Below are positions 3,309 through 18,991 of a stretch of DNA of 37,276 nucleotides, piece after piece. The DNA comes from Winogradskyella sp. (lineage in GTDB: Bacteria; Bacteroidota; Bacteroidia; Flavobacteriales; Flavobacteriaceae). The stretch spans positions 1-37,276 of the forward strand of contig NZ_JABDQL010000068.1 of the NCBI RefSeq assembly GCF_013042245.1. Direction: 5' to 3'. The position numbers and the translations under genes are program-made. The notes below the pieces were generated by a model. The model ran no database searches, was not told the origin of the DNA, and saw nothing but the letters and a program-made list of their open reading frames with translations. How positions within the stretch are numbered: the stretch's first letter is position 1; each line of letters starts with the position of its first letter.

Positions 3309-3339
3309 GAAGATTAAACCCTTCGGCAGCTTAATCTTC
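3309..3339. terminator. Hairpin between convergent small gene and thiL
   Basis: GAAGATTAA (3309-3317) and TTAATCTTC (3331-3339) form a perfect 9-bp stem with a 13-base loop. It spans the thiL stop codon and lies just past the end of the small FGH gene. No strong T-tract follows on either strand, so it is a possible shared terminator or transcript-stabilising hairpin. Confidence 0.4.
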
Positions 3340-4386
3340 TGTTTCTTTAAAATTTTTCCAACCCTTTGCTATAATCGGGACTTTAGTTTCTGCTCGGGTT
3401 ACTAAGTGCATCCCACGTTCGGCTTCGGTTATATAACCAATCACTGTAAGATTAGGATTGCCTTTTATTTTCGGGAAATCTTCTTGAGAAATCGTCATTA
3501 ATAGCTCATAATCTTCACCTCCATTTAGTGCAATGGTTGTACTGTCTATATTAAATTCTTCACAAGTAGAAATCACCTGAGGGTCAAGTGGTATTTTATT
3601 TTCATACACATCTGCACCAACTTTACTTTGTTTACAAAGGTGTATAATTTCAGAAGATAATCCATCACTGATGTCAATCATACTGGTTGGTTTTACCTCT
3701 AGCTTCTCCAAAAGTTCTACAATATCTTTTCTTGCTTCAGGTTTCAATTGACGCTCTACGATATAGGTATACATCGATAAATCGGGCTGGCTTTGAGGGT
3801 TCACTTTAAAAACTTCTTTTTCGCGTTCTAAAACTTGAAGTCCCATATAAGCGCCACCTAAATCTCCTGATACTACCAATAAATCATTAGGCTTTGCGCC
3901 TGAACGTTTTACCACCTTATCTTTTTCTACTTCGCCAATAGCTGTGATAGAAATAATAAGTCCAGAGGTTGAAGACGTCGTATCACCACCAACTACATCT
4001 ACATTGTATAGTCTTGTCGCTGTTTCTATACCTGCATATAATTCTTCTAGAGCTTCTAAAGGAAATCGATTGGATACAGCTATAGACACAGTAATCTGAG
4101 TTGCGTTTGCATTCATAGCATATACATCTGATAGGTTAACCATAACAGCTTTATAACCTAAATGCTTTAGAGGCACATAACTCAAATCAAAATGCACACC
4201 CTCAACAAGTAAGTCGGTTGTAACAACAATTTGTTTTTTATCTGAATTTATAATGGCAGCATCGTCGCCAATACCTTTTACTGTTGACTTATGATTTATT
4301 TTAAATTGCTCTGTTAAATGCTCAATAAGCTTAAACTCACCAAGTTCGCTTAAAGGGGTTCGCTGTGGGTTTTTATCTTCAATCAT
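3331..4386 (-). CDS. thiL: Thiamine-monophosphate kinase
   Basis: ThiL phosphorylates thiamine monophosphate with ATP to give thiamine diphosphate, the last step of cofactor synthesis. The 351-residue protein has the AIR-synthase/ThiL fold signatures. These are the GDDAA metal-binding motif at 40-44, TDLLVEGVHFD at about 57-67, an NLSDVYAM segment, VVGGDTT, and the late DISDGLSSE and GGEDYELL motifs. Length is at the upper end of the usual 310-350. It is monocistronic here, with no other thi genes and no TPP riboswitch visible upstream. It is transcribed divergently from the lipoprotein operon starting at 4500. A TACTTTTG box (4391-4398, minus strand) lies so close to the start that any transcript from it would be nearly leaderless. 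Confidence 0.95.
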   Translation of the reverse strand: MIEDKNPQRTPLSELGEFKLIEHLTEQFKINHKSTVKGIGDDAAIINSDKKQIVVTTDLLVEGVHFDLSYVPLKHLGYKAVMVNLSDVYAMNANATQITVSIAVSNRFPLEALEELYAGIETATRLYNVDVVGGDTTSSTSGLIISITAIGEVEKDKVVKRSGAKPNDLLVVSGDLGGAYMGLQVLEREKEVFKVNPQSQPDLSMYTYIVERQLKPEARKDIVELLEKLEVKPTSMIDISDGLSSEIIHLCKQSKVGADVYENKIPLDPQVISTCEEFNIDSTTIALNGGEDYELLMTISQEDFPKIKGNPNLTVIGYITEAERGMHLVTRAETKVPIIAKGWKNFKETED

Positions 4387-4499
4387 TTTGCAAAAGTATT
4401 ACGATTTAACAATTTTCACGAAATTTATTAGTCTATTTTGAGTTTTAATTAAATAGCAATTACTAATTATTAGCTAAATTGCAAAAAAAAATCACCCTA

Positions 4500-6365
4500 A
4501 TGAAATTTTCAAAAATACTCTTTGTCTTTTTATTCTGCTCTTTTTCAATCGTAGTAATCGGCTGCAAAGATGATGATAAACCTGCTACAGAAATTATTGA
4601 TACTGATGGTGATGGCATAAATGATGAAGACGATAATTGCCCCAATACACCCAATCCAAACCAAGCTGATTCTAATAATGATGGAGTTGGAGACGCTTGT
4701 AATAATGATTTTGATAATGATGGAGTTTTAAATGATGCTGATAATTGTCCTAATACTCCAAACAATAACCAGTTAGATACAGATAATGATGGTGATGGTG
4801 ATGCATGTGACGACGACGATGATGGCGATGGTGTTTTAGATGTTGATGACAATTGCCCACTAAATGCAAATGCTGATCAATTAGATACTGATGGCGATGG
4901 TGAAGGTGACACATGTGATACAGACGATGATGGCGATGGTGTTTTAGATGTTGATGATAACTGCCCCTTAGAAGCTAACCCTGAACAACTAGATACTGAT
5001 GATGATGGTGAGGGAGATGTTTGTGACACCGATGACGATGGTGACGGTATATTAGATGGAGATGATAACTGTCCGCTCAATGCAAATCCAAATCAAGAAG
5101 ATTTAGATAGTGACGGTATTGGAGATGCTTGTGATAATTGCGCAAATATATCTAATCCTAACCAAGAAGACATCGATAATGATGGTATTGGAGACGCTTG
5201 TGATGTAAGTCCTTATACCGTAAACACACCTTGTACAAACGGCATGGCAGGCGTTTATCCATGTGGTGGTATAGATGTATTATCTGTAATTGATGTAGCT
5301 ACGCTCGGAGGAAGCAATGCATTTAACATTGAAGGTAGTGATATTTGGGGTTGGACAGACCCAACAACTAACAACGAATACGCTCTAATCGCTTTAACAA
5401 ATAGCACCGCATTTGTAGATGTAACTGACCCATTACAGCCAATTTTTCTTGGTAGACTAAATACCAATGCTGGGATTAACTTTTGGCGTGATGTTAAAGT
5501 CTATAACAATTACGCCTTTATAGTAGCCGATGGAGCAGGTAATCATGGTATGCAAGTATTTGACTTAACCCGTTTACTAAACGTTACAAACCCACCGCAG
5601 ACTTTTAATGCAGATGCCATTTATAATGGTGTTGGTAGTTGCCATAATATTGTAATCAACGAAAGTGAAGCTATAGCTTATTTGGTAGGCTGTACATCAA
5701 CCAATGGTGGCGGTCCAATATTTGTAGATATATCCAATCCATTATCACCAACTTTTATAGGAGATTATACGTCTGGAGGCTATTCTCATGATGCGCAAGT
5801 TATAACCTATAACGGTCCTGATAGTGATTATACAGGAAAAGAAATTTATGTAGGTAGTAATGGTAACACCGATAAAATTGTAATATTAGATGTCACTGAT
5901 AAAAATAATGTAATCGCTATTAGTGATTTTTCATATCCACAAACATCTTACGCACACCAAGGTTGGTTCACAGATGACCAACGCTATTTTATACTCGGTG
6001 ATGAAACTGATGAACAAGCCTTTGGTTTTAACACTAAAACTTTAGTATTTGATTTTGAAGACCTAGACAATCCAATACCATCATCTACTTATTTTGGTCC
6101 AACGGCTGCTATTGACCATAACGGTTACGTAAAAGGAAATGAGTATTACTTAGCTAATTATAGAGCTGGTATGCGTATTTTAAATATCGACAACATTGGC
6201 GCATCATCTAACTCTATGACAGAAACCCACTTTATTGATACGTTCCCAACTAGTGATAGTGCTTCGTTTAATGGCGTTTGGAGTGTATACCCTTACTTTG
6301 CAAGTGGTAATATTATCATTAGTGATATTGAAAGTGGTCTTTTTGTTGTAAGAAAAAGCGAATAA
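4500..6365 (+). CDS. Surface lipoprotein with thrombospondin type 3 repeats and LVIVD (choice-of-anchor B) domain
   Basis: I chose the ATG at 4500 because it gives a clean lipoprotein signal ending VVIGC (Cys22). A TTG further upstream would add seven residues. CKDDD after the cysteine fits the acidic export signal of Bacteroidota surface lipoproteins. Residues about 29-236 are calcium-binding thrombospondin type 3 repeats, with many DxDxDG loops and DNCP motifs. Residues about 240-621 match the LVIVD/choice-of-anchor B beta-propeller family. Indicators are [27 protein letters not shown] and the terminal [19 protein letters not shown]. It probably forms a rigid calcium-dependent stalk carrying a propeller at the cell surface. 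It is the first gene of a four-gene operon with the propeller, MbnP-like and MbnH-like genes; gaps after it are 12, 1 and 3 bases. Confidence 0.88.
4815..5138 (+). repeat. Three 108-bp tandem repeats within the thrombospondin type 3 region
   Basis: Units begin at 4815, 4923 and 5031, each opening with codons for DDDGDG. The first two are nearly identical through at least 45 bases, and the third has diverged. Each unit encodes 36 residues with calcium-binding aspartate loops. Degenerate copies extend to about 4600 and 5205. In-frame copy-number change by recombination would lengthen or shorten the stalk. Confidence 0.85.
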
Positions 6366-6377
6366 ACAAAACAGCTT

Positions 6378-7715
6378 ATGCACCCCAAAAGCTACTTTAT
6401 ATCTTATTTACTATTTGCAGTCTTATTGTTTGGTTGTGATAACGAAAAACTCTCAGGATTTTCTCAGAATACATCGGGAGATATAGCTTTTATATCTACT
6501 TTTGGAGGAAACCAAAATGATAGTGCGCAATCTGTTGTAACAACAAATGATGGCGGATATGCTATTTTAGGGTTTACCCAAAGTGCAGATGGCGATATCA
6601 CTGATAAAGAAGACAACAGTTTTGATTATTGGTTACTCAAGTTTTCTTCTCAGAATACTTTAGAGTGGCAAAAAACCTATGGCGGCACTAATGATGACCG
6701 TGGTAGAGAAATTATACAAACGCAAGACGGAGGTTATGCTATTATTGGGACTAGTGAAAGTAACGATGGTGATGTATCTAATAATAATGGTTCACAAGAT
6801 TATTGGATAGCTAAACTAGATGCTCAAGGAAATATTTCGTGGCAAAAATCTTTAGGCTTCTCAGGTAACGATACAGGTATTTCTATTTTACAGACCTCCG
6901 ATTTAGGGTATTTGCTCACCGGTGTTTTGGATGTTACGGCATCTGGAGGCGAAGGAAATACAAATCGTTCCACGACAAGACATGCTGGAGGTGATTATTG
7001 GGCTATTAAATTAGATGCTTCTGGAAATTTACAGTGGAGTCGTTATTTTGGAGGTAATTTTACAGATACGCCAGAAGGTGCTGTGGAAAACGATGATGGT
7101 AGCTTTATAGTTGCTGGTGGTTCTGATAGTGAGGATACGGACATTTCAAACAATAAGGGTGATTATGATTTTTGGATTATTAAAATTGAAGCTAATGGCG
7201 ATTTGATTTGGGAAAAATCGTTTGGTGGAGAGCAAATTGATGAAGCTAGAGGTATTGTAAAAACAAATGATGGCAATATTGTAATTGCTGGCGATACAAG
7301 AAGTAATGACCAAGATGTGAGTACAAATAATGGTGCAGCAGATTTATGGCTGATTAAAATCTCTCCCGATGGAAACCTAATCTGGGAAAAAACTATTGGC
7401 GGTAGTAGCTTTGATGTAGCTAGGTCTATTAAAATTGCTCAAGACAATGGTTTTTTGTTATCTGGAAGCTCAAGAAGTAGTGATGGCGACGTCTCCGAAA
7501 ATAAAGGTCAAAATGATGCATGGGTGGTTAAAACAGATAGCAACGGTAATCTTGAATGGGAAACTACCGTTGGCGGAAGTAATATTGACTTTGCCTACAG
7601 CGTTACAGAATTAAATGACAACTCCGTTGTTATTGTCGGTGACACTACCAGTGATGATGGTGATATTGAAGATAATAAAGGATTTACAGACCTACTCATA
7701 TTCAAAATAAAGTAA
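6378..7715 (+). CDS. Lipoprotein with seven propeller-like repeats
   Basis: The 445-residue protein has a lipoprotein signal ending LLFGC (Cys20). Almost all the rest is seven repeats of about 55-60 residues. The repeat reads roughly GG, D, SI, TxDGGY, I, G, S, DGDV, NKG, DYW, K, D, GNL, W, KT. Each blade contains a Trp-x-x-Lys motif and ends with a conserved Trp-x-K before the next GG. Seven such units suggest a closed seven-bladed beta-propeller, which is inference. The third repeat carries an insertion rich in Gly, Ser and Thr. No catalytic motif is visible. It starts 12 bases after the LVIVD gene and ends one base before the MbnP-like gene, so co-expression with copper-protein genes is likely. 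A binding or scaffolding role is possible. The exact function is not known. Confidence 0.7.
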   Translation: MHPKSYFISYLLFAVLLFGCDNEKLSGFSQNTSGDIAFISTFGGNQNDSAQSVVTTNDGGYAILGFTQSADGDITDKEDNSFDYWLLKFSSQNTLEWQKTYGGTNDDRGREIIQTQDGGYAIIGTSESNDGDVSNNNGSQDYWIAKLDAQGNISWQKSLGFSGNDTGISILQTSDLGYLLTGVLDVTASGGEGNTNRSTTRHAGGDYWAIKLDASGNLQWSRYFGGNFTDTPEGAVENDDGSFIVAGGSDSEDTDISNNKGDYDFWIIKIEANGDLIWEKSFGGEQIDEARGIVKTNDGNIVIAGDTRSNDQDVSTNNGAADLWLIKISPDGNLIWEKTIGGSSFDVARSIKIAQDNGFLLSGSSRSSDGDVSENKGQNDAWVVKTDSNGNLEWETTVGGSNIDFAYSVTELNDNSVVIVGDTTSDDGDIEDNKGFTDLLIFKIK

Positions 7716-7716
7716 A

Positions 7717-8493
7717 ATGAAAAAGATTTTTGTACTAGTATTTGTAACCACTTTTTGTTTCTGGTCATGTACTGATGACGATAACAATAGTAATTTGAAT
7801 CCGGCCAATACGACTTTCAATTTTTCTCACAATTGGGATGGCATTCCTGTAAATAGTACTGACTTTAATACGATACAGTTTACAAACCAAAACGGCGAAA
7901 TGTTAAGTATAGAGCGTCTAAGGTATGTGTTATCTGACATCACCTTTACGACAACTTCAAATGAAGTATTAGATTTAGATAATTACAATTTAGTAGACCT
8001 TACTAACAATACAAATCTAGAATTTGATTTAGGAACTCAAATTCCACCAGGAAACTATAATAATGTCTCTTTTACGTTTGGCTTTGATAATGAAGATAAT
8101 ACTCAGAACTATGTAGATTTAAATTCTGCTTCCTTTAATGTGCCTGACATGTTAGGTGGTGGATATCACTACATGCAATTTGATGGAAAATATTTAGACT
8201 CAAACAACAATGAGGCTAACTTTAACTATCATGCCATAAGAGCTGTTGATAATCCAGGAATGAACCCAACTTTTCCGCAGGATACTTTTTTTAAGGTGAA
8301 TTTAGGTCCTATATCTATTTCAGATGATACAAACATCAATATAGCAATGAATATTGCACAATGGTTTAAAGAGCCAAACACATGGGATTTAAACCAACTC
8401 AATACTGTTTTAATGCCCAATTCTGCAGCTCAAATCCTCATGTTTGAAAATGGGAAAAATGTATTTAGTCTCGAATCTGTAACACAAGAATAA
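7717..8493 (+). CDS. MbnP-like copper-binding lipoprotein
   Basis: The 258-residue protein has a lipoprotein signal ending FWSC (Cys18). The rest matches the MbnP family: an early FNFSHNWDG strand, LRYVLSDI, the YNLVDL and PPGNYNNVSFTFG strands, GGGYHYMQFDGKY, FNYHAIR and a late INIAMNIAQWF segment. MbnP proteins bind copper through a kynurenine made from a tryptophan by the partner di-heme enzyme MbnH. The candidate tryptophan is Trp40 in HNWDG, next to His38. Other candidates are Trp216 and Trp223, and His151 and His172 could be copper ligands. The next gene encodes an MbnH-like protein starting three bases later. That pairing strengthens the call. No methanobactin genes are visible, so a general copper-acquisition or redox role is more likely than methanobactin import. 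Confidence 0.85.
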   Translation: MKKIFVLVFVTTFCFWSCTDDDNNSNLNPANTTFNFSHNWDGIPVNSTDFNTIQFTNQNGEMLSIERLRYVLSDITFTTTSNEVLDLDNYNLVDLTNNTNLEFDLGTQIPPGNYNNVSFTFGFDNEDNTQNYVDLNSASFNVPDMLGGGYHYMQFDGKYLDSNNNEANFNYHAIRAVDNPGMNPTFPQDTFFKVNLGPISISDDTNINIAMNIAQWFKEPNTWDLNQLNTVLMPNSAAQILMFENGKNVFSLESVTQE

Positions 8494-8496
8494 AAC

Positions 8497-9570
8497 TTGA
8501 AAACGTGGATATATATATTAATCTTAATATCTCTATTACTCTCATGTTCTAGTGATAATGATGAAGGCTATTCACCTTTGGAAATAACACCAACCCCAGT
8601 TAACTTAGAGATTCCTCAAATATTTTCTAATAACATACTTCCACCCGTTATTCCTACTGAAAATCCGCTAACCGAACAAGGCATAGCTTTAGGAAAACGC
8701 TTATTTTTTGACCGCATTTTATCTGGTGACCAAACCATCTCTTGCGCGAGCTGCCATTCTCCGCAAAATGCATTTACCGATGACACTCCAACAAGTATAG
8801 GTATTGATGGTATAAATGGGACTCGCAACTCCATGCCCTTATTTAATTTAGCTTGGAATTATAATGAACGTTTTGCTTGGGACGGCAAAGAATTAAGCTT
8901 AGAACGGCAAGCTCTTGAACCCGTTGAAAATCCTATAGAAATGCACAGTGATTGGGGTGATGTTGTTAGTAGACTTCAAAACCATCCTGAATATCCGCAA
9001 CTCTTTGAAGAAGCATTTGAAACAACGATGATTACCAAAGAATTAACAGTAAAAGCGATTGCGCAATTTGAACGCACCTTGATTTCAGCAAATTCAAAAT
9101 TTGATAGATATACTCTAGGACAAACTGCTTTAACAACTCAAGAACTAAATGGCTTAGATGTTTTTCTTCGTGAAGATAAAGGCGATTGTTTTCATTGCCA
9201 TGGCAGTCCAAATAATCCACTTTGGACCAATAACGATTTTCATAATAACGGATTGGACGCTACATTCACAGATTTAGGCTTAGGTGCAGTAACTGGAGAC
9301 CCAAATGATAACGGAAAATTTAGAACACCATCCTTAAGAAACCTGGCTTTTACGGCACCTTATATGCATGATGGTCGATTTGCAACATTAGAAGAAGTTA
9401 TTGACTTTTACAGTGAAGGACTTCAAAATTCGGCAACAATAGACCCACTAATGAAAAATGTTACCCAAGGTGGTGTTCAACTTTCAGACGAAGATAGGGC
9501 AGATTTAAAGGTCTTTTTACTCTCCTTATCTGACCCTTCATTTTTGACAAATCCTGCTTTTCAAAATTAA
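8497..9570 (+). CDS. MbnH-like di-heme cytochrome c peroxidase family lipoprotein
   Basis: The start is a TTG in the same frame as the preceding stop codon (TAA AAC TTG), so no upstream start is possible. It gives a lipoprotein signal ending LLLSC (Cys17). The 357-residue protein belongs to the bacterial di-heme peroxidase/MauG superfamily. Its heme-attachment motifs are CASCH at 83-87 and CFHCH at 231-235, and the YMHDGRF motif begins at Tyr289. A LAWNYNERFAWDG segment, rich in the aromatics seen in this family, lies between the two heme motifs. MbnH enzymes oxidise a tryptophan of MbnP to kynurenine. Adjacency to an MbnP gene favours that function over a hydrogen-peroxide detoxifying peroxidase. 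It needs cytochrome c maturation after export. It is the last gene of the operon, and no terminator is evident after it. Confidence 0.88.
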   Translation: MKTWIYILILISLLLSCSSDNDEGYSPLEITPTPVNLEIPQIFSNNILPPVIPTENPLTEQGIALGKRLFFDRILSGDQTISCASCHSPQNAFTDDTPTSIGIDGINGTRNSMPLFNLAWNYNERFAWDGKELSLERQALEPVENPIEMHSDWGDVVSRLQNHPEYPQLFEEAFETTMITKELTVKAIAQFERTLISANSKFDRYTLGQTALTTQELNGLDVFLREDKGDCFHCHGSPNNPLWTNNDFHNNGLDATFTDLGLGAVTGDPNDNGKFRTPSLRNLAFTAPYMHDGRFATLEEVIDFYSEGLQNSATIDPLMKNVTQGGVQLSDEDRADLKVFLLSLSDPSFLTNPAFQN

Positions 9571-9589: not shown

Positions 9590-9680
9590 ATTATTTATGC
9601 ATTTCATCGAAAAAATACGCGCTACAACTTGTTTTAATAACTGCTTTATGTATATTAGTCGTCCCCCAAATCATGAAAAC

Positions 9681-10029: not shown

Positions 10030-10060
10030 CACTCTATTTAGAAAAAATCTTAATAACAAT

Positions 10061-10390
10061 ATGATAAAGGTTTCTGATACAGCGAAGCAGAAAGTCATAC
10101 AACTCATGAAAGAGGATGGCTTTGATGCTGCTACAGATTACATAAGAGTTGGCGTTAAAAGCGGCGGATGCTCTGGTTTATCTTACGATTTAAATTTTGA
10201 CAAAAATCAGGAAGACGGTGATAAAGTTTTCGAAGACAATGGTGTAAAAATCATTGTAGACAAAAAAAGCTTCTTATACCTGATAGGCACAACACTAGAA
10301 TATTCTGGTGGCCTTAATGGAACTGGTTTTGTATTTAATAATCCAAATGCCAATAGAACTTGTGGTTGTGGCGAATCATTTTCACTTTAA
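10061..10390 (+). CDS. sufA: A-type iron-sulfur carrier SufA/IscA
   Basis: A-type carriers hold or pass on nascent Fe-S clusters. The 109-residue protein has the three conserved cysteines: Cys37 in SGGCSGLSY and Cys101 and Cys103 in the C-terminal CGCG. Length is typical. It heads the suf operon behind a strong promoter match and lies 12 bases before sufB. Whether it works like SufA, IscA or ErpA cannot be told from sequence; the SufA name rests on position. Confidence 0.93.
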   Translation: MIKVSDTAKQKVIQLMKEDGFDAATDYIRVGVKSGGCSGLSYDLNFDKNQEDGDKVFEDNGVKIIVDKKSFLYLIGTTLEYSGGLNGTGFVFNNPNANRTCGCGESFSL

Positions 10391-10402
10391 AGAAAAGAAC
10401 AT

Positions 10403-11851
10403 ATGTCAAAATATACTGAAGACGATTTAAGGGAAGAATTAAAAACCAAAGAATACGAATATGGTTTTTACACTGACATCGATTCTGAAACATTTCCTGT
10501 TGGTCTTAACGAAGACATCGTTAAAGCCATTTCTAAGAAAAAGGAAGAGCCAGAATGGATGACCGAATGGCGATTAGAAGCCTTTAAAGTTTGGAAAGAA
10601 ATGACCGAACCAGAATGGGCAAACGTGCATTATGAAAAACCAGATTTTCAGGCAATTTCTTATTACTCTGCACCAAATAGTAAACCTAAATACGATAGTA
10701 TAGATGAGGTTGACCCTGAATTATTGGCAACTTTTGAGAAGCTAGGTATTTCTCTTGATGAGCAAAAGAAACTGGCTGGCGTGGCTATGGACGTTGTAGT
10801 AGATTCAGTTTCTGTAGCTACAACATTCAAAAAAACCTTAGCTGAAAAAGGTATTATCTTCATGAGTATTTCTGAAGCTATAAAAGAGTATCCAGAATTG
10901 GTAAAAAAATATATAGGCACTGTTGTCCCTCAGAAAGATAACTTTTATGCAGCATTAAATTCTGCTGTGTTTAGTGATGGGTCATTCTGTTACATCCCAA
11001 AAGGTGTACGTTGCCCAATGGAATTGTCAACATATTTTAGAATTAACCAAGCAGGAACAGGTCAGTTTGAAAGAACATTAGTTATTGCTGACCAAGGCAG
11101 TTATGTGTCTTACTTAGAAGGTTGTACAGCACCGAGTCGTGATGAGAACCAATTACACGCCGCTGTTGTTGAACTTATTGCACTTGACGATGCTGAGATA
11201 AAATACTCTACAGTACAAAACTGGTATCCTGGAAACGCTGAAGGAAAAGGTGGTGTTTACAACTTTGTAACCAAACGTGGACTTTGTGAAAAGAATGCAA
11301 AAATCTCTTGGACACAAGTAGAAACTGGTTCTGCAGTCACTTGGAAATATCCATCTTGTGTACTTAAGGGTGATAACTCAATTGGAGAATTCTACTCTAT
11401 TGCTGTAACTAACAATTACCAACAAGCAGATACTGGTACAAAGATGATTCACTTAGGAAAAAACACAAAGTCAACCATAATTTCAAAAGGTATTTCTGCA
11501 GGTAAATCTCAGAATTCTTATCGAGGATTAGTTAAAATTAACTCTGGTGCCGATAATGCACGAAACTTTTCACAATGCGATAGTTTGTTAATGGGTAACG
11601 AATGTGGTGCACACACATTCCCTTATATAGAAGCAAAAAACAAATCAGCTCAAATAGAACATGAGGCTACAACCAGTAAAATTGGTGAAGACCAAATTTT
11701 TTATTGTAACCAACGTGGTATAGATACTGAAAAAGCAATTGCGCTTATCGTCAACGGTTTTAGTAAAGAAGTATTAAATAAATTACCAATGGAATTTGCT
11801 GTCGAAGCACAGAAATTATTAGAAATTTCTCTAGAAGGTTCTGTTGGATAA
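10403..11851 (+). CDS. sufB: Fe-S cluster scaffold subunit SufB
   Basis: SufB is the scaffold on which clusters are built in the SufBC2D complex. The 482 residues match the usual length. The core beta-helix ends with the conserved [14 protein letters not shown] segment. Cys392 there corresponds to E. coli Cys405, and Glu419-His420-Glu421 (EHE before ATTSKIGED) to Glu432-His433-Glu434. I made that alignment by eye. It follows sufA closely and is separated from sufC by two lipoprotein genes, which is not the usual E. coli order. Confidence 0.97.
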
Positions 11852-11980
11852 ATTATAATTAATTATGAAACGAGCATGCTAAACATAGTATCACCCAAAG
11901 GAATGATTAATAGCGAACAGCGTGTGTCCTTAAAAAAACAATACATATAAACACATGAACTTTAAACATAATTTATTCGT

Positions 11981-12871
11981 ATGAAAAAACTACTCTTACT
12001 ATTGGTCATAGTTTTAGGGTTTTCTTCTTGTAAAGATTTTAAAGAAGGTCTAAAAGACGGGTATAATGCCGCTAAAAAAGAAGCAGAGGCAACCAAGAAG
12101 CAAGGTATAAAACTTTACACACTTGACGGTGGCACTGTACAAGCAAATAAACTGGAACTATTCTCTCAAGATACAACCTATACTGGACAAAGTAAAACCT
12201 TTGCAGATGCGTTTTATGTAATTGTACACCCTAAAGGAACTTTAATGTGGGACACAGGTTTGCCAGAAAGTCTTGTAGGTTTACCAGAACCATTTACTGA
12301 CCCAAGCGGTGCATTTACAGTATCCAGAAACGATAGTGTAGTCTCGCAATTATCAAAAATTGATATGACTCCAGCAGATATTGATTTTTTAGCCTTATCG
12401 CACACACATTTTGACCATAGTGGTCATGCTGAAAAGATTAAAAATGCCAAATGGTTAGTACAAGAAACTGAGTATAATTTTATAACTAGCGAGGAGGTTC
12501 AAAAAAATAATGCCGATATCTATAATGCGGTAAATGATTTACAAAACGTTCAGAAACTTAATGGCGATTATGACGTTTTTGAAGATGGTACCGTAATTAT
12601 AAAATCCATGCCTGGTCATACGCCCGGTCATCAAGTTTTATTTCTTAAGCTTGAAAATGCTGGTAATGTATTATTGACAGGAGATTTATACCACTTCCAA
12701 GAGAATAGAGATTCTAAAGGTGTGCCTAGCTTTAACTATGATGCCGATATGACTTTGAAAAGCATGGACGAATTTGAAGCTTTTGCGAAACAAAACAATG
12801 CAGATGTTTACATCCAGCATAGCAAAGATGATTTTTATAGATTACCAAAATATCCAAAGTACCTAGATTAA
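11981..12871 (+). CDS. Metallo-beta-lactamase-fold lipoprotein, N-acyl homoserine lactonase-like
   Basis: The 296-residue protein has a lipoprotein signal ending GFSSC (Cys17). It then shows the binuclear zinc site of the MBL superfamily: HTHFDHSGH at 141-149, His213 and His217 in PGHTPGHQ, Asp235 in LLTGDLYHF and His280 in IQHSKDD. The SHTHFDHSGH pattern and length put it near the AHL-lactonase branch. A quorum-quenching role is not established, and esters, lactones or other secreted substrates are equally possible. It sits in the suf operon between sufB and sufC after a 129-bp gap, and its stop overlaps the next start by one base. Being periplasmic or surface-bound, it cannot work directly on the cytoplasmic SUF machine. 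Confidence 0.87.
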   Translation: MKKLLLLLVIVLGFSSCKDFKEGLKDGYNAAKKEAEATKKQGIKLYTLDGGTVQANKLELFSQDTTYTGQSKTFADAFYVIVHPKGTLMWDTGLPESLVGLPEPFTDPSGAFTVSRNDSVVSQLSKIDMTPADIDFLALSHTHFDHSGHAEKIKNAKWLVQETEYNFITSEEVQKNNADIYNAVNDLQNVQKLNGDYDVFEDGTVIIKSMPGHTPGHQVLFLKLENAGNVLLTGDLYHFQENRDSKGVPSFNYDADMTLKSMDEFEAFAKQNNADVYIQHSKDDFYRLPKYPKYLD

Positions 12872-13278
12872 TGATAAAGCAATTATTTTCACTATTACTA
12901 TGCCTTGTATTTTTTGTGTCCTGTAAAAACGATACTAAAAAAGAAACTGGAAGTTTAGAAGAATCTAAATCCTATAACCAGAATGACGGTTTAATTACTT
13001 TAAAAGGCGACTTTATTTACATGGCAGATGCTGCAGTGATTCAAACTAAAAATGAAATCTACGGCGTTATCATTGATGACCAGACGCACAAATTAAATGA
13101 TGCTGTTGCTAAATTCAAAAAAGAAGCCACAGACATGGTACCTGTAACCGTAAGAGCAAAACGCACGACAAAACCTGAAGGCGAAGAAGGCTGGCCTTTT
13201 AGACTAGAAATAAAAGAAATTATTAAAGTTGAAGCTCCAAATCCTGAGCAAAACGATATTATAAAAATAGAAAACTAA
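12871..13278 (+). CDS. Small lipoprotein of unknown function
   Basis: A 135-residue protein with a lipoprotein signal ending FFVSC (Cys18). The mature part looks like a small OB-like or beta-barrel domain: a [18 protein letters not shown] strand pair, then an IYGVIIDD strand, and a VPVTVRAKR strand followed by [13 protein letters not shown] do not recognise a family. Its start codon overlaps the stop of the MBL lipoprotein gene (TAATG). It lies 4 bases before sufC, so all three are translated from one message. The close coupling suggests it works with the MBL lipoprotein. Confidence 0.75.
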
Positions 13279-13282
13279 GATT

Positions 13283-14035
13283 ATGTTAAAGATAAATAAC
13301 TTGCACGCTAGTGTTGAGGACAAACCTATTTTAAGAGGTATCAACCTTCATGTAAAACCCGGAGAAGTACATGCTATAATGGGACCAAATGGTTCTGGTA
13401 AAAGTACGTTGGCATCTGTAATAGCTGGTAAAGAAGAGTATGAAGTTGATCAAGGAGAAATTGTTTTAGAAGATGAGGATTTAGAAGAGTTAAGCGCGGA
13501 AGAACGCGCTCACAAAGGCGTATTTTTGTCGTTTCAATATCCTGTTGAAATTCCTGGGGTTAGTGTAACTAACTTCATGAAAACAGCCATCAACGAAACG
13601 CGTAAAGCTAAAGGTTTGGAAGATATGCCAGCTAATGAAATGTTGAAACTTATCCGTGAAAAATCTGAGCTTTTAGAAATTGACCGTAAGTTTTTATCAC
13701 GTTCATTAAACGAAGGCTTTTCTGGAGGAGAAAAGAAACGTAATGAAATCTTTCAAATGGCAATGCTAGAACCAAAATTAGCCATTTTAGATGAAACAGA
13801 CTCTGGTTTAGATATTGATGCCTTACGTATCGTGGCTAATGGTGTTAACAAACTAAGATCTAAAGACAATGCTGTAGTCGTCATTACGCATTACCAACGT
13901 CTATTAGATTATATCGTTCCTGATTATGTCCACGTTTTGTACAACGGTCGTATTGTAAAATCTGGACCTGCAGCATTAGCTCATGAATTAGAAGCTAAGG
14001 GTTACGATTGGATTAAGGAAGAAGTAAACGCATAA
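13283..14035 (+). CDS. sufC: Fe-S assembly ATPase SufC
   Basis: SufC is the ABC-type ATPase of the SufBCD scaffold complex and is soluble. The 250-residue protein has Walker [10 protein letters not shown] at 34-42, the signature [10 protein letters not shown] at 146-155, Walker B at about 165-170 and the SufC-typical [13 protein letters not shown] stretch. The Q-loop is LSFQYP at 82-87. It starts four bases after the small lipoprotein gene. Confidence 0.98.
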
Positions 14036-14105
14036 TTAGTAATTAGTAAGTAACATTCAGTACTCTAACTGTAATATACATACTAAATACTTTATACATA
14101 ACAAA

Positions 14106-15419
14106 ATGGAACTAAAAGAAAAATTAGTATCGTCTTTTATGGCATTCGAAGACACAGTCGATGTAGATTTGCCTGTACATGATATACGTCTAGACGCCAT
14201 TAAAGCATTTGAAGCCGAAGGTTTCCCCAATAAAAAACAAGAAGCTTGGAAATACACTTCATTAAATTCAATTTTAAAAAATGATTTTAGTGTATTTCCA
14301 AAAGAAACAGGTGCTTTAGATTATAAAGATGTTAAGCAATATTTTATCCATGATATAGATTCTTATAAAATCATATTTGTAGATGGTAAATATTCGTCTC
14401 ACCTTTCGGCAACAACGCACGATGGTATTGATGTCTGCCTAATGTCCGCAGCTTTGAACAAACCAAAATACAAGTTGGTTATTGATAATTATTTCAATAA
14501 AATAGCAACTAAAGATGGTTTCTCATCTTTAAATACGGCATTTTCAGCTGAAGGTGCTTACATCCATATCCCTAAGAATAAGGTGGTTGAAAAGCCAATA
14601 CAAATTATTCACTTTTCCACAGGTAATGAAGCTGCTATAATGCTTCAGCCAAGAAATCTAATTGTAGTTGATGAGAATTCTCATGTTCAAATTATTGAGC
14701 GTCATCAGAGTTTAACAGATAATCCAACACTAACCAATAGTGTAACTGAGATTTTTGCTAACAAACGTGCTATTGTAGATTACTATAAAATTCAGAATAA
14801 TAGGCAATCAGCTTCTTTGATAGACAGTACATTCGTCAATCAAAAACAAGAAAGTTTAGCTAAGGTGCATACCTTTTCTTTTGGTGGAAAATTAACACGA
14901 AACAACCTTAATTTTTACCAAAACGGAGAGCGTATTGATTCTACCATGAAAGGTATTACCATCATTGGTGATAAACAACACGTAGACCACAACACGTTAG
15001 TACATCATATAGAGCCTAATTGCGAAAGCCACCAAGACTACAAAGGTATTTTTGATGCTAATTCTACGGGGGTATTTAACGGCAAAGTCGTTGTTGAAAA
15101 AGAAGCCCAAAAGACAAATGCCTTTCAGGCTAATAATAATATTCTTATAAGCGACAAGGCTACTATTAACACAAAACCTCAGCTAGAGATTTTTGCAGAT
15201 GACGTTAAATGTTCGCATGGTTGTACAATTGGACAACTAGATGAAAGTGCAATGTTTTACTTACGTTCCCGTGGTATTCCAGAAAAAGAAGCTCGAGGAT
15301 TGTTAATGTATGCTTTTAGTAATAATGTTTTAGATTCTGTAAAGATTCCTGAAATCAAAAACAGAATCACAAAACTTATTGCTCAAAAACTAGGTGTTAA
15401 TATAGGGTTTGATTTGTAG
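14106..15419 (+). CDS. sufD: Fe-S assembly protein SufD
   Basis: SufD pairs with SufB and SufC and helps iron entry into the scaffold. The 437-residue protein has the N-terminal helical segment with the FPNKKQEAWKYTSL motif. The beta-helix core ends in DDVKCSHGCTIGQLDE, which contains the conserved histidine, then the helical ARGLLMYAFSNNVL tail. It follows sufC after a 70-bp gap, and its stop abuts the sufS start with no spacer, indicating coupled translation. Confidence 0.96.
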   Translation: MELKEKLVSSFMAFEDTVDVDLPVHDIRLDAIKAFEAEGFPNKKQEAWKYTSLNSILKNDFSVFPKETGALDYKDVKQYFIHDIDSYKIIFVDGKYSSHLSATTHDGIDVCLMSAALNKPKYKLVIDNYFNKIATKDGFSSLNTAFSAEGAYIHIPKNKVVEKPIQIIHFSTGNEAAIMLQPRNLIVVDENSHVQIIERHQSLTDNPTLTNSVTEIFANKRAIVDYYKIQNNRQSASLIDSTFVNQKQESLAKVHTFSFGGKLTRNNLNFYQNGERIDSTMKGITIIGDKQHVDHNTLVHHIEPNCESHQDYKGIFDANSTGVFNGKVVVEKEAQKTNAFQANNNILISDKATINTKPQLEIFADDVKCSHGCTIGQLDESAMFYLRSRGIPEKEARGLLMYAFSNNVLDSVKIPEIKNRITKLIAQKLGVNIGFDL

Positions 15420-16658
15420 ATGAGTACAATTGAAAAACATATTAAATTTGATGTTGAAGCAATAAGAAAAGAGTTTCCAATACTTAATAGACAAGTTAAT
15501 GGCAAGCCACTCATCTATTTTGATAATGCGGCAACATCACAAACACCTCAACAAGTAATTGATGTTATTGTAGATTATTATAGTAATTACAATGCCAATA
15601 TTCATCGCGGTGTGCATACCTTGAGCCAAGAAGCTACGGATGCATACGAGCAGGCAAGAATCAAAATCCAAAAACATTTTAATGCTAAGCATACTCACGA
15701 AATTATATATACCTCAGGGACAACTCATGGTATTAATTTGGTTGCTAGCGGGTTTTCTTCTTTATTACAAAAAGGAGATGAAGTCATTGTTTCTGGGTTA
15801 GAACATCATAGTAATATCGTCCCTTGGCAAATGTTGTGTGAGCGTACAGGAGTAACATTGAAGGTGATACCAATGAACCAAAATGGCGAGTTGGTCTTAG
15901 ATGATTACGACTCACTTTTAAACAAAAAAACAAAACTTGTTTTTGTTAATCATATCTCAAATGCTTTAGGAACTATTAATCCTATTGAATATATAATTAA
16001 AAAAGCACATTCGGTCGGTGCAGCTGTATTAGTTGACGGCGCTCAATCGTGCCCTCACATAAAACCAGATGTACAAGCTTTGGATGTAGACTTCTATGTT
16101 TGCTCTGCTCATAAGATATGTGGACCAACTGGAGTAGGTATGCTTTATGGAAAACAGGAATGGCTCAAAAAACTACCGCCATATCAAGGTGGTGGTGAGA
16201 TGATTGCTGAAGTTAGTTTTGAAAAAACAACCTACGCCGATTTACCTCATAAATTTGAAGCTGGTACACCAAATGTGTCTGGAGGTATTGCTTTTGGAGC
16301 TGCTTTAGATTATATGAATAGTATAGGTTTTGACACCATTGCAAACTACGAAAATGAACTTCTTGTATACGCTACAAAACAACTTGAAAACATTGAAGGT
16401 CTAAAAATTTACGGTACAGCAAAAGAAAAAACATCAGTAATTTCTTTTAATGTAGGCAATATTCACCCTTATGATATCGGGACTATTTTAGATAAAATGG
16501 GTATTGCTGTACGTACTGGTCACCATTGTGCGCAACCCATAATGGATTTTTATCAAATTCCAGGGACTATTCGTGCATCGTTTATGTTTTATAATACCAA
16601 AGCAGAAATAGACACTTTTATTACGGCGCTTAAAAAAGCAGTTATGATGCTATCGTAA
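15420..16658 (+). CDS. sufS: Cysteine desulfurase SufS
   Basis: A PLP enzyme that takes sulfur from cysteine and passes it to SufE. It is 412 residues, typical of group II desulfurases. The PLP lysine is Lys232 in SAHKICGPTG. The persulfide cysteine is Cys370 in RTGHHCAQP, in the short-loop arrangement of SufS rather than IscS. The DNAATSQTP segment near residues 35-43 is also diagnostic. It is the last gene of the first suf block; a clear terminator follows. Confidence 0.97.
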   Translation: MSTIEKHIKFDVEAIRKEFPILNRQVNGKPLIYFDNAATSQTPQQVIDVIVDYYSNYNANIHRGVHTLSQEATDAYEQARIKIQKHFNAKHTHEIIYTSGTTHGINLVASGFSSLLQKGDEVIVSGLEHHSNIVPWQMLCERTGVTLKVIPMNQNGELVLDDYDSLLNKKTKLVFVNHISNALGTINPIEYIIKKAHSVGAAVLVDGAQSCPHIKPDVQALDVDFYVCSAHKICGPTGVGMLYGKQEWLKKLPPYQGGGEMIAEVSFEKTTYADLPHKFEAGTPNVSGGIAFGAALDYMNSIGFDTIANYENELLVYATKQLENIEGLKIYGTAKEKTSVISFNVGNIHPYDIGTILDKMGIAVRTGHHCAQPIMDFYQIPGTIRASFMFYNTKAEIDTFITALKKAVMMLS

Positions 16659-16686
16659 AATCTTTCAACATATTTATCAAATAATT

Positions 16687-16712
16687 AGCACCTTTTTGTA
16701 GGTGCTTTTTTT
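16687..16712 (+). terminator. Rho-independent terminator after sufS
   Basis: AGCACCT and AGGTGCT form a perfect 7-bp stem around TTTTGT, followed by seven T residues. It lies 28 bases after the sufS stop and ends the sufA-sufS transcript before the metalloprotease promoter. Confidence 0.88.
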
Positions 16713-16755
16713 ATATAGGCCTTACACTTTATCGATCTGTAAACAAATATTTTTT

Positions 16756-16781
16756 TAATTTGTTAAAAATTTAACAAATTA
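16756..16781. promoter_or_regulatory. Operator-like palindrome overlapping the metalloprotease promoter
   Basis: A perfect 12-bp inverted repeat (arm TAATTTGTTAAA) around a 2-base AA centre covers the -33 element of the promoter for the M43 metalloprotease. Length and position fit a dimeric repressor site. The DNA is very AT-rich, so chance is not excluded, but a 26-bp perfect dyad at a promoter is notable. Confidence 0.5.
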
Positions 16782-16792
16782 TTTTATATTTG
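16760..16792 (+). promoter_or_regulatory. Candidate promoter of the M43 metalloprotease gene
   Basis: TTG (16760-16762), 22 bases, then TATATTTG (16785-16792). The -7 box is exact and the spacing is at the long end. It begins 30 bases upstream of the start codon. Confidence 0.5.
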
Positions 16793-16822
16793 ACAAAATT
16801 TTTAACCAAAAACTAACTAAAA

Positions 16823-17926
16823 ATGAAAAAAACGATTTTAAGAGTTGCTGTAATGGCGCTTCTTTTTGCGGGTTGTAGTGATGACAACAATAATCTAGAA
16901 CAAGAACAAGCAAAAGTAGACATGAGTGACTTCTATTTATACACAGATGCTACAGAAGACGGTACTAATACTAGAGCTGTAAATGGAAAAAAGTGTAATT
17001 CAATGACCGTACTTAATCGTCGATTGAATGAAAACCCTGGACTTTATCAAAAAATGTATAATATCGAATTGCATTCTAGACAGTTCATAGCTAATCTTAG
17101 ACCTCCGGGAGGCAATGGTAACGGTAATGGCGGAGGACCAGGAGGAGATAACGGAGGCGGAGACCCCGTTGATGATGGCTTAGGTATTGTAACCATTCCT
17201 GTTTATGTACATGTTTTATACAATACAAATACTGAAAACATTAGTGACTCACAAATTCAGTCACAAATAGATGTTTTGAATGAAGATTTTAGAAAAACTA
17301 ATAATGATGCCAGTCTAGTTCCTTCTGAATTTGCACCTGTAGCAACAGATACTGAAATTGAATTTACACTAGCTGGAATTACAAGAAAACAATCATCTAT
17401 TACAGATTGGGGAACTAGTGATAATATGAAATCTTCTTCTTCTGGGGGTATTAACCCTATTACTCCAGAAACACATTTAAATATTTGGGTCGTAAACAAA
17501 ATGTCTTATCGAAATTATACGGTATTTGGTTTTGCACAATTTCCTGGCGATGATCCATCTACTGATGGCGTAGTAGTTGCTCATCCTTATTTTGGGAATA
17601 CAGGAACGGCAGGAAGTGTTTTTCCTGAAATTAATCTTGGAAGAACCGCAACTCATGAAGTCGGGCATTATTTAAATCTTCGCCATATATGGGGAGATGG
17701 AAGATGCAACCGTGATGATTTTGTGTATGACACGCCAAAATCTGATCGCTCAAATCAAGGCTGTCCCTCATACCCTACAGAGCATTGTAGAAGTAACGAT
17801 ATGACTATGAACTATATGGACTATACAAATGATAGTTGTATGTATATGTTTAGTGATGGTCAAAAAGAGAGAATGCGGGCTGTGTTTGCTCCAGGCGGAC
17901 CAAGAGCATCCATAGTCGGAAACTAA
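16823..17926 (+). CDS. M43 (pappalysin-like) zinc metalloprotease lipoprotein
   Basis: The 367-residue protein has a lipoprotein signal ending LFAGC (Cys18), then CSDDN, an acidic stretch typical of surface lipoproteins. A Gly/Asn-rich linker at about residues 94-112 precedes the catalytic domain. The zinc site is HEVGHYLNLRH, with His278, Glu279, His282 and His288. The Met-turn region is MNYMDYTNDSCMYMF. These define metzincin family M43 (MEROPS). It probably cleaves proteins at the cell surface or outside it. There is no C-terminal type IX sorting domain. It is flanked by terminators on both sides, so it is a separate unit inserted between sufS and sufE. Confidence 0.93.
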   Translation: MKKTILRVAVMALLFAGCSDDNNNLEQEQAKVDMSDFYLYTDATEDGTNTRAVNGKKCNSMTVLNRRLNENPGLYQKMYNIELHSRQFIANLRPPGGNGNGNGGGPGGDNGGGDPVDDGLGIVTIPVYVHVLYNTNTENISDSQIQSQIDVLNEDFRKTNNDASLVPSEFAPVATDTEIEFTLAGITRKQSSITDWGTSDNMKSSSSGGINPITPETHLNIWVVNKMSYRNYTVFGFAQFPGDDPSTDGVVVAHPYFGNTGTAGSVFPEINLGRTATHEVGHYLNLRHIWGDGRCNRDDFVYDTPKSDRSNQGCPSYPTEHCRSNDMTMNYMDYTNDSCMYMFSDGQKERMRAVFAPGGPRASIVGN

Positions 17927-17949
17927 AAAACACTAAAAGCATTAATTTT

Positions 17950-17980
17950 AAAGGAGTTTCTTTGAGAAGCTCCTTTTTTT
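17950..17980 (+). terminator. Rho-independent terminator after the M43 metalloprotease gene
   Basis: A 12-bp stem (17950-17961 with 17965-17976, one G-U pair, TTG loop) is followed by a run of T to 17980. It lies 23 bases after the stop codon. Confidence 0.88.
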
Positions 17981-18022
17981 GGCATCAAAAATGTAGCTTA
18001 CACATTATAAAATACCAAGATT

Positions 18023-18541
18023 ATGAAATTTTTATTCAGTTTAGCGACACTATTCTTTTTAACAGGCTCTTGCAATTCGCAAAAAGAAACAACTACAAAC
18101 AGTAATAAATCTAATACACAATCCATTAAAGAACAACAAATGGTAACAGATAAGCAAAAGGCTATTGGTCAAAACTATGATGTAGCAGTTATATATGAAG
18201 CTAGGTCTAGAGGTTCTGCAAAGTATATCTATGTCTCCAAAGTCAAGATTATGTTGTCACAAGATCTTAGTTTGCAAAAAATGGATGAATATCCCTGTAA
18301 TGCAAAAGATTGGGAAGAAGTGAAGAAACTCCTAGACGATATTGAAAGAAAAGCATTTCAAAATTTAAAAGCACCCACAGACAAGAGGCTCTATGATGGT
18401 GCAGCACATACAACCCTGTCTATAAAACAAGGTGACGTTATATACATGACGCCAAGTTTTGATGCGGGTTTTCCGCCAAAAGAAATTGAAGAACTCGTTA
18501 ATAAAGTGTTAGCATTAGCAGAGAAAGTAAAAAAACAGTAG
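18023..18541 (+). CDS. Lipoprotein of unknown function upstream of sufE
   Basis: The 172-residue protein has a lipoprotein signal ending LTGSC (Cys17) and a Ser/Thr/Asn-rich low-complexity stretch to about residue 40. The folded part follows, from QNYDVAVIYEARSRGSAKYIYV through a central amphipathic helix to a final charged helix. I do not recognise a family. A GAAHTTLSI segment is the most distinctive motif. It lies 26 bases before the sufE start and appears to lead the second suf transcript. I saw no strong promoter match between the preceding terminator and this gene. Confidence 0.75.
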   Translation: MKFLFSLATLFFLTGSCNSQKETTTNSNKSNTQSIKEQQMVTDKQKAIGQNYDVAVIYEARSRGSAKYIYVSKVKIMLSQDLSLQKMDEYPCNAKDWEEVKKLLDDIERKAFQNLKAPTDKRLYDGAAHTTLSIKQGDVIYMTPSFDAGFPPKEIEELVNKVLALAEKVKKQ

Positions 18542-18567
18542 TAATTTTGTTTTTTAAAGATGTTACA

Positions 18568-18990
18568 ATGACGATTGAAAATATACAAAACGCGATTATT
18601 GACGAATTCTCAATGTTTGAAGATTGGGAAGAACGCTATCAATACATGATTGACTTAGGTAAAACGCTACCTCTTATAGAAGAGCAATATAAAACCGATG
18701 ATAATATCATAAAAGGTTGCCAAAGTAAGGTCTGGGTACATGCCAATATGAGCAATGATAAAGTAGAATTTACAGCTGATAGTGATGCCATTATCACAAA
18801 AGGAATCATTGCTATACTTATAAGAGCCTTTTCAAATCAACATCCAAAAGATATTATTGTGGCTAATACTGATTTTATTGATAAAATTGGGCTTAAAGAA
18901 CATTTATCGCCGACGAGAGCAAATGGTCTTGTAAGTATGATAAAGCAGCTAAAAATGTATGCTATAGCATACCAAACACAATTAAACTAA
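18568..18990 (+). CDS. sufE: Sulfur acceptor SufE
   Basis: SufE receives persulfide sulfur from SufS and delivers it to SufB. I start it at the ATG at 18568, giving 140 residues beginning MTIENIQNAI, the normal SufE length. A TTG seven codons upstream is less likely. The acceptor is Cys51 in the GCQSKVWV motif. It is followed one base later by the SufT-like gene. Confidence 0.95.
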   Translation: MTIENIQNAIIDEFSMFEDWEERYQYMIDLGKTLPLIEEQYKTDDNIIKGCQSKVWVHANMSNDKVEFTADSDAIITKGIIAILIRAFSNQHPKDIIVANTDFIDKIGLKEHLSPTRANGLVSMIKQLKMYAIAYQTQLN

Positions 18991-18991
18991 A

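Follow-up and report, generated by a model that had tools for sequence, protein, structure and literature searches.

A flavobacterial lipoprotein gene unit joins two propeller proteins to an MbnP/MbnH-like pair

INTRODUCTION

What do two propeller proteins do in one gene unit with relatives of MbnP and of the di-heme enzyme MbnH? The question is raised by a stretch of DNA from Winogradskyella sp. (contig NZ_JABDQL010000068.1; 37,276 nucleotides [nt], here called the window), the plus strand of which carries four consecutive lipoprotein genes at positions 4500-9570. We call their products CAB (stalk and choice-of-anchor B propeller), SBP (SBBP-repeat propeller), MbnP and MbnH. MbnP/MbnH pairs and CAB proteins are already known. 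Conservation of the pairs reaches well past the producers of methanobactin, and a 2013 article, in its available part, considered it unclear how relevant the pair is to methanobactin (PMC3621798).

RESULTS

Four adjacent genes encode predicted surface lipoproteins. A sequence-only reading of the window had proposed four lipoprotein genes separated by gaps of 12, 1 and 3 bases. The coordinates of the open reading frames (ORFs) bear this out, as do N termini that are by eye of the lipobox type (..VVIGCKDDD, ..LLFGCDNEK, ..FWSCTDDD and ..LLSCSSDND for genes 1 to 4); an alternative in-frame TTG start of the CAB gene lies at position 4479. Acidic runs resembling an export signal were judged by eye against the surface export signals K-(D/E)2 and SDDFE, as described in the part of the source at hand (PMC5080379). 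They are clear in gene 1 (C-KDDD) and gene 3 (C-TDDD), partial in gene 4 (C-SSDNDE) and weak in gene 2 (C-DNEK). At least two acidic residues at positions +2 to +7 were found in 78/81 MbnP, 67/88 SBP, 41/58 CAB and 48/64 MbnH proteins and in 62/151 other lipobox ORFs, counted with a crude lipobox finder that passed 58 of 203 CAB, 88 of 148 SBP, 81 of 115 MbnP and 64 of 121 MbnH ORFs. Promoter and terminator scans of the window remained at chance level. The locus is probably one transcription unit encoding a surface assembly of outer-membrane lipoproteins.

CAB matched the NCBIfam family choice_anch_B (TIGR04312) with 510.3 bits (cut-off, 100) and is thus a member of it. It had been described as a calcium-stalk LVIVD protein; the stalk, six Pfam PF02412 stretches, holds, but LVIVD stays below the Pfam threshold (18.3 versus 20.2) and choice-of-anchor B fits better. 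SBP gave a weak NCBIfam match to the SBBP lipoprotein family (55 bits versus a cut-off of 400). The assignment of the last two genes to MbnP and MbnH was upheld. The product of gene 3 belongs to the Pfam MbnP family (PF20243; 98.6 bits versus a gathering score of 27), and that of gene 4 matched CCP_MauG (PF03150) in Pfam and, as the best of six NCBIfam families, TIGR04039 (MbnH) with 273.7 bits, below the cut-off of 362.85. That cut-off was exceeded in none of 149 genomes of the same family, Flavobacteriaceae. As already read from the sequence, nothing methanobactin- or TonB-like is present among the four genes and the immediate flanking ORFs read in the window.

CAB and SBP are the constant core of the unit. 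Occurrence was analyzed in 149 Flavobacteriaceae genomes, sampled evenly with one genome per genus code. MbnP was found in 71 genomes (79 matches, including two fragments of one gene in G124), CAB above the cut-off in 76, and SBP orthologues in 71; the latter were kept out of 81 genomes with any match, since SBP matches scoring less than about 300 bits were assigned to other SBBP proteins. CAB precedes SBP in 71/71 genomes, in 68 by coordinates (CAB domain at most 700 nt upstream) and in three (G039, G063 and G073), which have longer CAB proteins, by gene maps. CAB without SBP occurs in five genomes. Of the 49 genomes with both SBP and MbnP, all but G075 have MbnP directly behind SBP (48/49); within the family, the propeller genes are therefore not rarely linked to MbnP/MbnH, the outcome that would have counted against the earlier reading. 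As 23 of the 71 SBP loci lack MbnP and MbnH, the constant core consists of CAB and SBP, with MbnP/MbnH being optional but slot-specific. Of the earlier view of the propellers as structural partners, the idea of a single surface-lipoprotein unit stands, but not the accessory role.

For gene order, 80 neighborhoods were fetched and their ORFs clustered; counted together with the window, 71 loci contain SBP. Two loci (L031 and L049) show no CAB in the gene maps, a miss of the ORF caller, as a hidden Markov model search finds CAB there. The usual order starts with a divergent thiL and one to five CAB copies, followed by SBP, by MbnP and MbnH where these occur, and by the suf genes. Both thiL upstream and suf downstream were seen in 66/71 SBP loci; of the other five, L086 and L091 end at a contig edge, L038 is without thiL, L035 without suf, and L053 without both. 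Median gaps inside the unit are 5, 3 and 6 nt (the last, between MbnP and MbnH, from 47 loci), and overlaps occur, whereas sufA follows at a median distance of 136 nt from MbnH (37 loci) or 124 nt from SBP (18 loci). The unit therefore sits beside suf and is not part of it. In line with this, CAB-SBP persists without following suf genes in L035, L053 and L137 (Flavobacterium gelidilacus), and the complete CAB-SBP-MbnP-MbnH set does so in L163, L169 and Kordia algicida (L141, with an extra ORF between MbnP and MbnH); genes of L137, L141, L163 and L169 were labeled by best blast matches to the first locus set. Among the best 80 relatives of the window CAB (L111-L190), a biased set that serves for names and not for rates and includes some short contigs, 77 loci have SBP, 62 MbnP and 60 MbnH. 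As a separate observation, locus L082 carries five tandem CAB genes ahead of one SBP; CAB thus increases in copy number and SBP does not.

In the SBP tree (71 rows), the 23 loci without MbnP/MbnH form one clade (support, 98). Three changes in the presence of the pair are needed on this tree, the deepest forks of which are weak. For the residue counts in the family sample and for the MbnH tree, described below, minimum lengths were 300, 350, 200 and 280 amino acids for CAB, SBP, MbnP and MbnH, respectively.

The window MbnP lacks the tryptophan of the WxW motif. In the 2021 work on MbnP, a structure paper with its own neighborhood analysis, the first tryptophan of a Trp-x-Trp (WxW) motif was reportedly oxidized to kynurenine. 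We take this residue to be the kynurenine-forming tryptophan of MbnP, and the name of the NCBI model, MbnP_like_WxW (TIGR04052; cut-off, 140), agrees that the motif is diagnostic. The window MbnP has F140-N-V142 where the motif aligns and is not a WxW protein; it matched neither TIGR04052 nor any other NCBIfam model at an E value of ≤0.01. TIGR04052 scored two relatives of a group that we call class A with 54 to 55 bits, one member of the window's own class B with 36.6 bits, and another class B protein not at all.

Class B MbnP proteins form one clade (Shimodaira-Hasegawa-like approximate likelihood ratio test, 100) of 43 loci, all located behind SBP, in a tree where some L031-L110 genes are duplicated as L001-L030. 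Class A genes lie mostly elsewhere in the genome; the exceptions are four pairs (L099-L102) that branch within class A and occupy the slot behind SBP. The WxW motif is present in 12/12 class A proteins; class B keeps the first tryptophan in 37/43 and the second in 8/43, and Phe-x-Val (FxV) as in the window occurs in 6/43. Among 60 MbnP proteins of named loci, some of which come from genomes of the even sample, class B comprises 21 FxV, 17 WxV and 13 WxW proteins and class A 5 WxW proteins, with 4 unresolved by the pattern. In an MbnP tree with the motif masked (94 rows), five changes between Trp and Phe are needed at the first place, at least two of them forced by well-supported branches, and one between Trp and Val at the second.

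Other residues are well kept. H151, H172, M233 and W223 are present in 43/43 class B proteins, W40 in 41/43 and H38 in 33/43; H172 is found in 55/55 aligned sequences of both classes. Kynurenine had been predicted at Trp40. We reject Trp40 as the homologous site, because Phe140 takes the place of the first WxW tryptophan in the alignment and Trp40 belongs to the divergent class B. Given its conservation there, Trp40 is a possible new modification site. With Phe140 at the place of the first tryptophan, the window protein cannot, as judged from its sequence, carry the canonical WxW kynurenine, and it seems to have lost the modified residue. A Protein Data Bank sequence search with this MbnP gave no phmmer match, and a profile search gave only matches to the signal peptide.

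Two observations concern the class A loci. In the eight stand-alone loci read, a Cys/His protein of about 120 amino acids lies upstream in 8/8 (at a distance of some genes in L106) and a protein of about 325 amino acids downstream in 7/8. At L103, the products of 6937-7956 and 10058-10483, which flank the class A pair, have Cys/His-rich stretches and no Pfam or NCBIfam match; they may be part of a copper island.

The di-heme partner is retained. The window MbnH carries the heme motifs CASCH and CFHCH, and the two CxxCH motifs are kept in the window and in relatives whose MbnP has Phe for the target Trp. In an alignment of 56 MbnH proteins, C83, C86, H87, C231, C234, H235, W128 and E148 are invariant, and M149 and H291 have frequencies of 0.96 and 0.98. 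The nearest solved chain is 6e1c, a "Di-heme enzyme" (E value, 3e-59; 204 bits), presumably the methanotroph MbnH, and peroxidases reach at most 143 bits. The MbnH tree, which has one very long branch (L106), shows two groups that match the MbnP classes (support, 100 and 97).

CAB has a conserved four-histidine set on a propeller. The structure model of the CAB domain (predicted local distance difference test score [pLDDT], 92.1; predicted template modeling score, 0.91; 48 sequences used) is a seven-bladed propeller. Invariant in 90 family-sample sequences are four histidines as well as N390, D438, Q494, D508, E509, D546, N548 and W601 (numbered from the TTG start). In 45 distant rows, the histidines are retained in 45, 44, 45 and 45 and W40, D188, N298 and E259 (domain numbering) in 45, 45, 45 and 44; these rows represent other Bacteroidota families together with two paralogues found in Flavobacteriaceae, with two proteins doubled (L199/L237 and L206/L238) and no row for L240. 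In the model, H139, H187, H243 and H297 are at most one residue from the start of strands 140-144, 188-193, 242-247 and 296-302, that is, one per blade in comparable strands of four successive blades. W86-R87-D88 take a like place in an earlier blade and W351 in the last one. In carotenoid cleavage dioxygenase and nitrous oxide reductase, histidines of the inner strands bind the metal at the top face of the propeller, according to the part of the source at hand (PMC8916777). The modeled placement of the CAB histidines resembles such a site, and they likely form a putative metal site.

With the CAB model, the best Foldseek match was the phosphotriesterase 5hrm (E value, 3e-12), followed by an entry at 5e-9; SBP56 (2ece) ranked 39th. 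Superposition by VIA-align on 5hrm gave a Z score of 30.0 over 335 residues, and many other propellers ranked alike. CAB sequence profiles reached 5hrm/5ioj at E values of 0.007 to 0.016 and little else, and a weak sub-alignment (4.8 bits) pairs the His of "aHNIV" in CAB with that of "FHSVV" in 5hrm.

SBP resembles the propeller of CylK. Gene 2 had been read as encoding seven repeats, and its product was accordingly modeled as a seven-bladed propeller of 28 strands (pLDDT, 90.5). Its similarity to the CylK propeller (7ron) is strong by Foldseek (E value, 2e-24), by superposition (Z score, 50.0; root mean square deviation, 1.9 over 377 residues; 26% identity) and by profile comparison (E value, 1e-33); the next protein in the structural ranking has a Z score of only 32.7. 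SBP residues 36-445 align with CylK 249-651, so that SBP begins at the propeller and is without the N-terminal, Ca-binding domain that holds Arg105. In the profile alignment, CylK Tyr473 corresponds to Y263, Asp440 to T231 and the neighboring Asp439 to D230. SBP as a CylK-like alkylating enzyme was rejected mainly because the domain with Arg105 is missing. Most likely, SBP is a binding or scaffold module.

Outside Flavobacteriaceae, one case links CAB to MbnP/MbnH. A plasmid of Pseudoalteromonas xiamenensis (NZ_CP099918.1), from another phylum, carries a divergent CAB gene 82 nt from the MbnP start, with MbnH adjoining. The three proteins score 464 (CAB), 152.6 (MbnP) and 503 (MbnH) bits, all above the NCBI cut-offs. 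The annotation within 10 kb on either side of this locus lists neither an SBP-like nor a suf gene. Querying a plasmid collection with a class A MbnP from flavobacteria gave no match, and a viral-contig scan with the Pseudoalteromonas CAB revealed no relative. Among 247 genomes sampled throughout Bacteroidota, 77 have CAB and 67 have MbnP. In other Bacteroidota families, 11 of 22 CAB loci read have a same-strand neighbor of 357 to 451 amino acids within 150 nt, and all six of those neighbors that were searched match propeller families (lactonase/YncE-like). A pair of CAB and a second propeller may thus be a wider theme.

Features of the window and neighboring genes. The features are listed in Table 1. 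The closest named relatives by CAB domain are from Winogradskyella (79-81%) and Lacinutrix (81%) and, by MbnP, from an uncultured Winogradskyella (80%).

TABLE 1 Coordinates of the unit and its conserved neighbors in the window
Feature	Position	Strand	Description
CAB gene	4500..6365	+	ATG start; six thrombospondin-3 repeats (stalk) and choice-of-anchor B propeller; lipoprotein
CAB propeller domain	5229..6362	+	Conserved H139, H187, H243, H297, W40, W86, D188, E259, N298, W351 (domain numbering)
SBP gene	6378..7715	+	SBBP-repeat seven-bladed propeller lipoprotein, related to CylK propeller domain
MbnP-like gene	7717..8493	+	Lipoprotein, class B; Phe-x-Val at 140-142 replaces WxW; H151, H172, M233 retained
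MbnH/MauG-like gene	8497..9570	+	Di-heme lipoprotein, two CxxCH, TTG start
thiL-like gene	3331..4386	-	Thiamine-phosphate kinase (named from sequence); divergent boundary; cluster present in 69/81 mapped loci
suf operon	10061..19318	+	sufA, sufB, sufC, sufD, sufS, sufE-like, sufT-like and inserted genes (names from sequences); conserved downstream neighbor

Two insertions in the suf operon encode lipoproteins, one metallo-beta-lactamase-like (11981-12871; named from its sequence) and the other, lipoprotein-like with an NlpE_C OB domain (12871-13278), located between sufB and sufC. A copper link through the NlpE_C-domain lipoprotein (cluster c11), present in 43/48 loci with MbnP/MbnH and 1/23 without, was dropped because an alpha/beta-hydrolase neighbor has the same clade pattern (42/48 versus 1/23). 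On each side of the unit lies a gene for a small Cys/His-containing protein (3062-3307 and 9597-9902); the two proteins resemble each other by eye and have no Pfam or NCBIfam match. The cluster of the former has 75 copies in 53 loci; the latter did not cluster with it. A BrnQ-like ORF (101-583; named from its sequence) has 160 amino acids versus a cluster median of 428 and stops near the contig end.

DISCUSSION

The anatomy of the operon is firm, and from it we infer a mechanism. We tentatively propose, as a possibility short of a probable one, that CAB is a surface metalloenzyme served by MbnP and MbnH, by analogy with the mtoX-SCO1-mauG operon. CAB would be a metal-dependent surface enzyme, which SBP would cap or tether. 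MbnP would bind or deliver Cu(I), and MbnH would act as a peroxide-driven di-heme oxidase that matures MbnP at a different tryptophan, or CAB, or SBP. At loci without MbnP/MbnH, CAB would obtain its metal in another way or use another metal. This proposal draws on the gene linkage, the use of one slot by two MbnP/MbnH lineages, the Pseudoalteromonas case, the four histidines of CAB and the surface signals.

SBP56, the family of MtoX, is a beta-propeller. MtoX itself is described, in the part of the source at hand, as a Cu enzyme with four conserved histidines that is encoded together with the copper chaperone SCO1 and with mauG (PMC5739008). The likeness of the window unit to the mtoX-SCO1/SenC-mauG operon, drawn from the same partial source (PMC5739008), is one of working logic only and not of membership: CAB is not SBP56 by sequence, MbnP replaces SCO1, there are two propellers, and the proteins are lipoproteins.

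Several results weigh against the proposal. The absence of MbnP behind SBP in 23/71 SBP genomes, all of which have CAB, means that the CAB metal site cannot depend on MbnP/MbnH everywhere. The closeness of the four CAB histidines in space is putative, as judged from strand positions in the model. CAB as SBP56/MtoX was rejected, neither family being among its Pfam and NCBIfam matches at an E value of ≤0.01. The association of class B with CAB-SBP is old and largely a single inherited event, because the loci without the pair form one clade and the SBP tree holds three state changes. CAB was within 10 kb of MbnP in 0/21 Bacteroidota genomes outside the family that have both, several of them many-contig assemblies, the closest distances being 16 kb (G384) and 23 kb (G373); the linkage expected across Bacteroidota thus held in Flavobacteriaceae but not in other families. 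The cross-phylum neighborhood is one case only: a plasmid collection yielded seven MbnP records, with the Pseudoalteromonas MbnP as the query, and one CAB record, and the Pseudoalteromonas plasmid is the sole record with both.

The sequence-only reading had favored a surface complex for copper capture or redox, in which MbnP takes up Cu(I), MbnH prepares the site and the propellers serve as docking proteins or scaffolds that perform no chemistry themselves. We now find this doubtful, though capture by a surface-lipoprotein unit is possible: the two genes share one unit, the proteins have lipoprotein signals, and SBP, without the Arg105 domain of CylK, may be a binding module. There is also a precedent in CorA, a kynurenine copper protein that is surface-associated, copper-repressed and co-transcribed with a di-heme peroxidase-like protein, as far as the part of the source at hand goes (PMC3912023). 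The window unit shares with MopE/CorA the design of a surface copper protein and its co-transcribed di-heme peroxidase-like partner (PMC3912023, same part), but the kynurenine Trp of MopE/CorA has no established counterpart here. Copper capture is no longer the leading reading, given the CAB-SBP core without MbnP/MbnH in 23/71 SBP loci, an active-site-like set of conserved residues in CAB, no transporter gene seen within the unit, and the loss of the WxW tryptophan from the window MbnP.

A bolder form of the metalloenzyme proposal, which we consider rather improbable as a whole, holds that CAB represents an unrecognized family of secreted four-His propeller metalloenzymes, that MbnP/MbnH, where present, is a kit that supplies or matures their metal site, and that the Winogradskyella-type MbnH has been retargeted to another tryptophan of MbnP, CAB or SBP. 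Under the same proposal, the MbnH target would have changed in Winogradskyella-like lineages because the canonical MbnP tryptophan is gone.

Alternatively, CAB could be a two-metal hydrolase of the type of the Sphingobium TCM1 phosphotriesterase (Sb-PTE), with MbnP/MbnH as a separate copper pair that shares the promoter. Sb-PTE holds two metals, and we assume that the His of "FHSVV" and Glu407 are among their ligands. Its structure 5hrm is not only the first Foldseek match of the CAB model but also has the longest alignment (335 residues) and the highest identity (16%) among the best 50 listed; it is also what the profile searches reach, with the histidine pairing noted above. That said, the profile E values are marginal, the pairing sub-alignment is very weak and offers no counterpart for Glu407, and the Z score is no better than that of many propellers. 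Identity amounts to 12 to 16%, so that a common function would be putative, and two MbnP/MbnH lineages in one slot are left unexplained. We regard this reading as unlikely.

Still less likely, in our view, is that the genes are old neighbors held together by inheritance without a joint function. The conserved thiL and suf flanks, the few state changes on the SBP tree, the alpha/beta-hydrolase neighbor with its equal clade pattern, and the 21 other Bacteroidota genomes in which CAB and MbnP are not neighbors all fit it. It is opposed by internal gaps of 3 to 6 nt with overlaps, by a unit that stays intact away from suf, and by the Pseudoalteromonas case. Furthermore, inheritance alone leaves the second MbnP/MbnH lineage in the SBP slot unexplained; in-place replacement is possible.

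Very improbable is a role of MbnH at the surface as a peroxidase for hydrogen peroxide or an outlet for electrons, with MbnP as its redox partner and without protein modification: the family of gene 4 also has bacterial cytochrome c peroxidases among its close relatives and MbnH stands behind MbnP proteins with Phe for the target Trp, but 6e1c is nearer than any peroxidase, and the tryptophans W223 and W40 kept in class B may be targets.

With regard to known systems, the MbnP/MbnH pair (TIGR04052/TIGR04039; PF20243; GenProp0940) is matched by the adjacency of the two genes, the Pfam MbnP domain, MbnH as the best model for gene 4 and the conserved H172. The window unit differs from it in the MbnP without WxW and without a TIGR04052 match, the sub-cut-off gene 4, the missing Mbn genes and the joined CAB-SBP. 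Sb-PTE, a propeller with metals, is the best Foldseek match of the CAB model. CylK and SBP share the propeller and Tyr473 (Y263 in SBP), but not the N-terminal domain or Asp440 (T231). In the literature searched, we found neither the union of MbnP/MbnH and CAB with a CylK-type propeller nor an MbnP class without WxW, although the 2021 MbnP structure paper may note CAB neighbors; the search returned nothing on choice-of-anchor B or TIGR04312 and, among the matches listed, nothing on the WxW kynurenine.

Returning to CAB as a metalloenzyme served by MbnP/MbnH, a specific partner of the pair is proposed here on two lines, an operon shared by numerous genera within one family and a single example from another phylum. 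CAB, hitherto annotated solely by its variable anchor, gains a testable metalloenzyme function. Since the window MbnP lacks the WxW tryptophan while MbnH is kept, the true target of MbnH becomes a testable question, and the natural loss of this residue offers a ready comparison among WxW, WxV and FxV relatives, for example in Olleya, Algibacter and Winogradskyella. Many marine flavobacteria conserve a set in which two ring-shaped surface proteins, CAB with its likely metal site and SBP, stand beside a presumed copper-binding protein and a heme enzyme.

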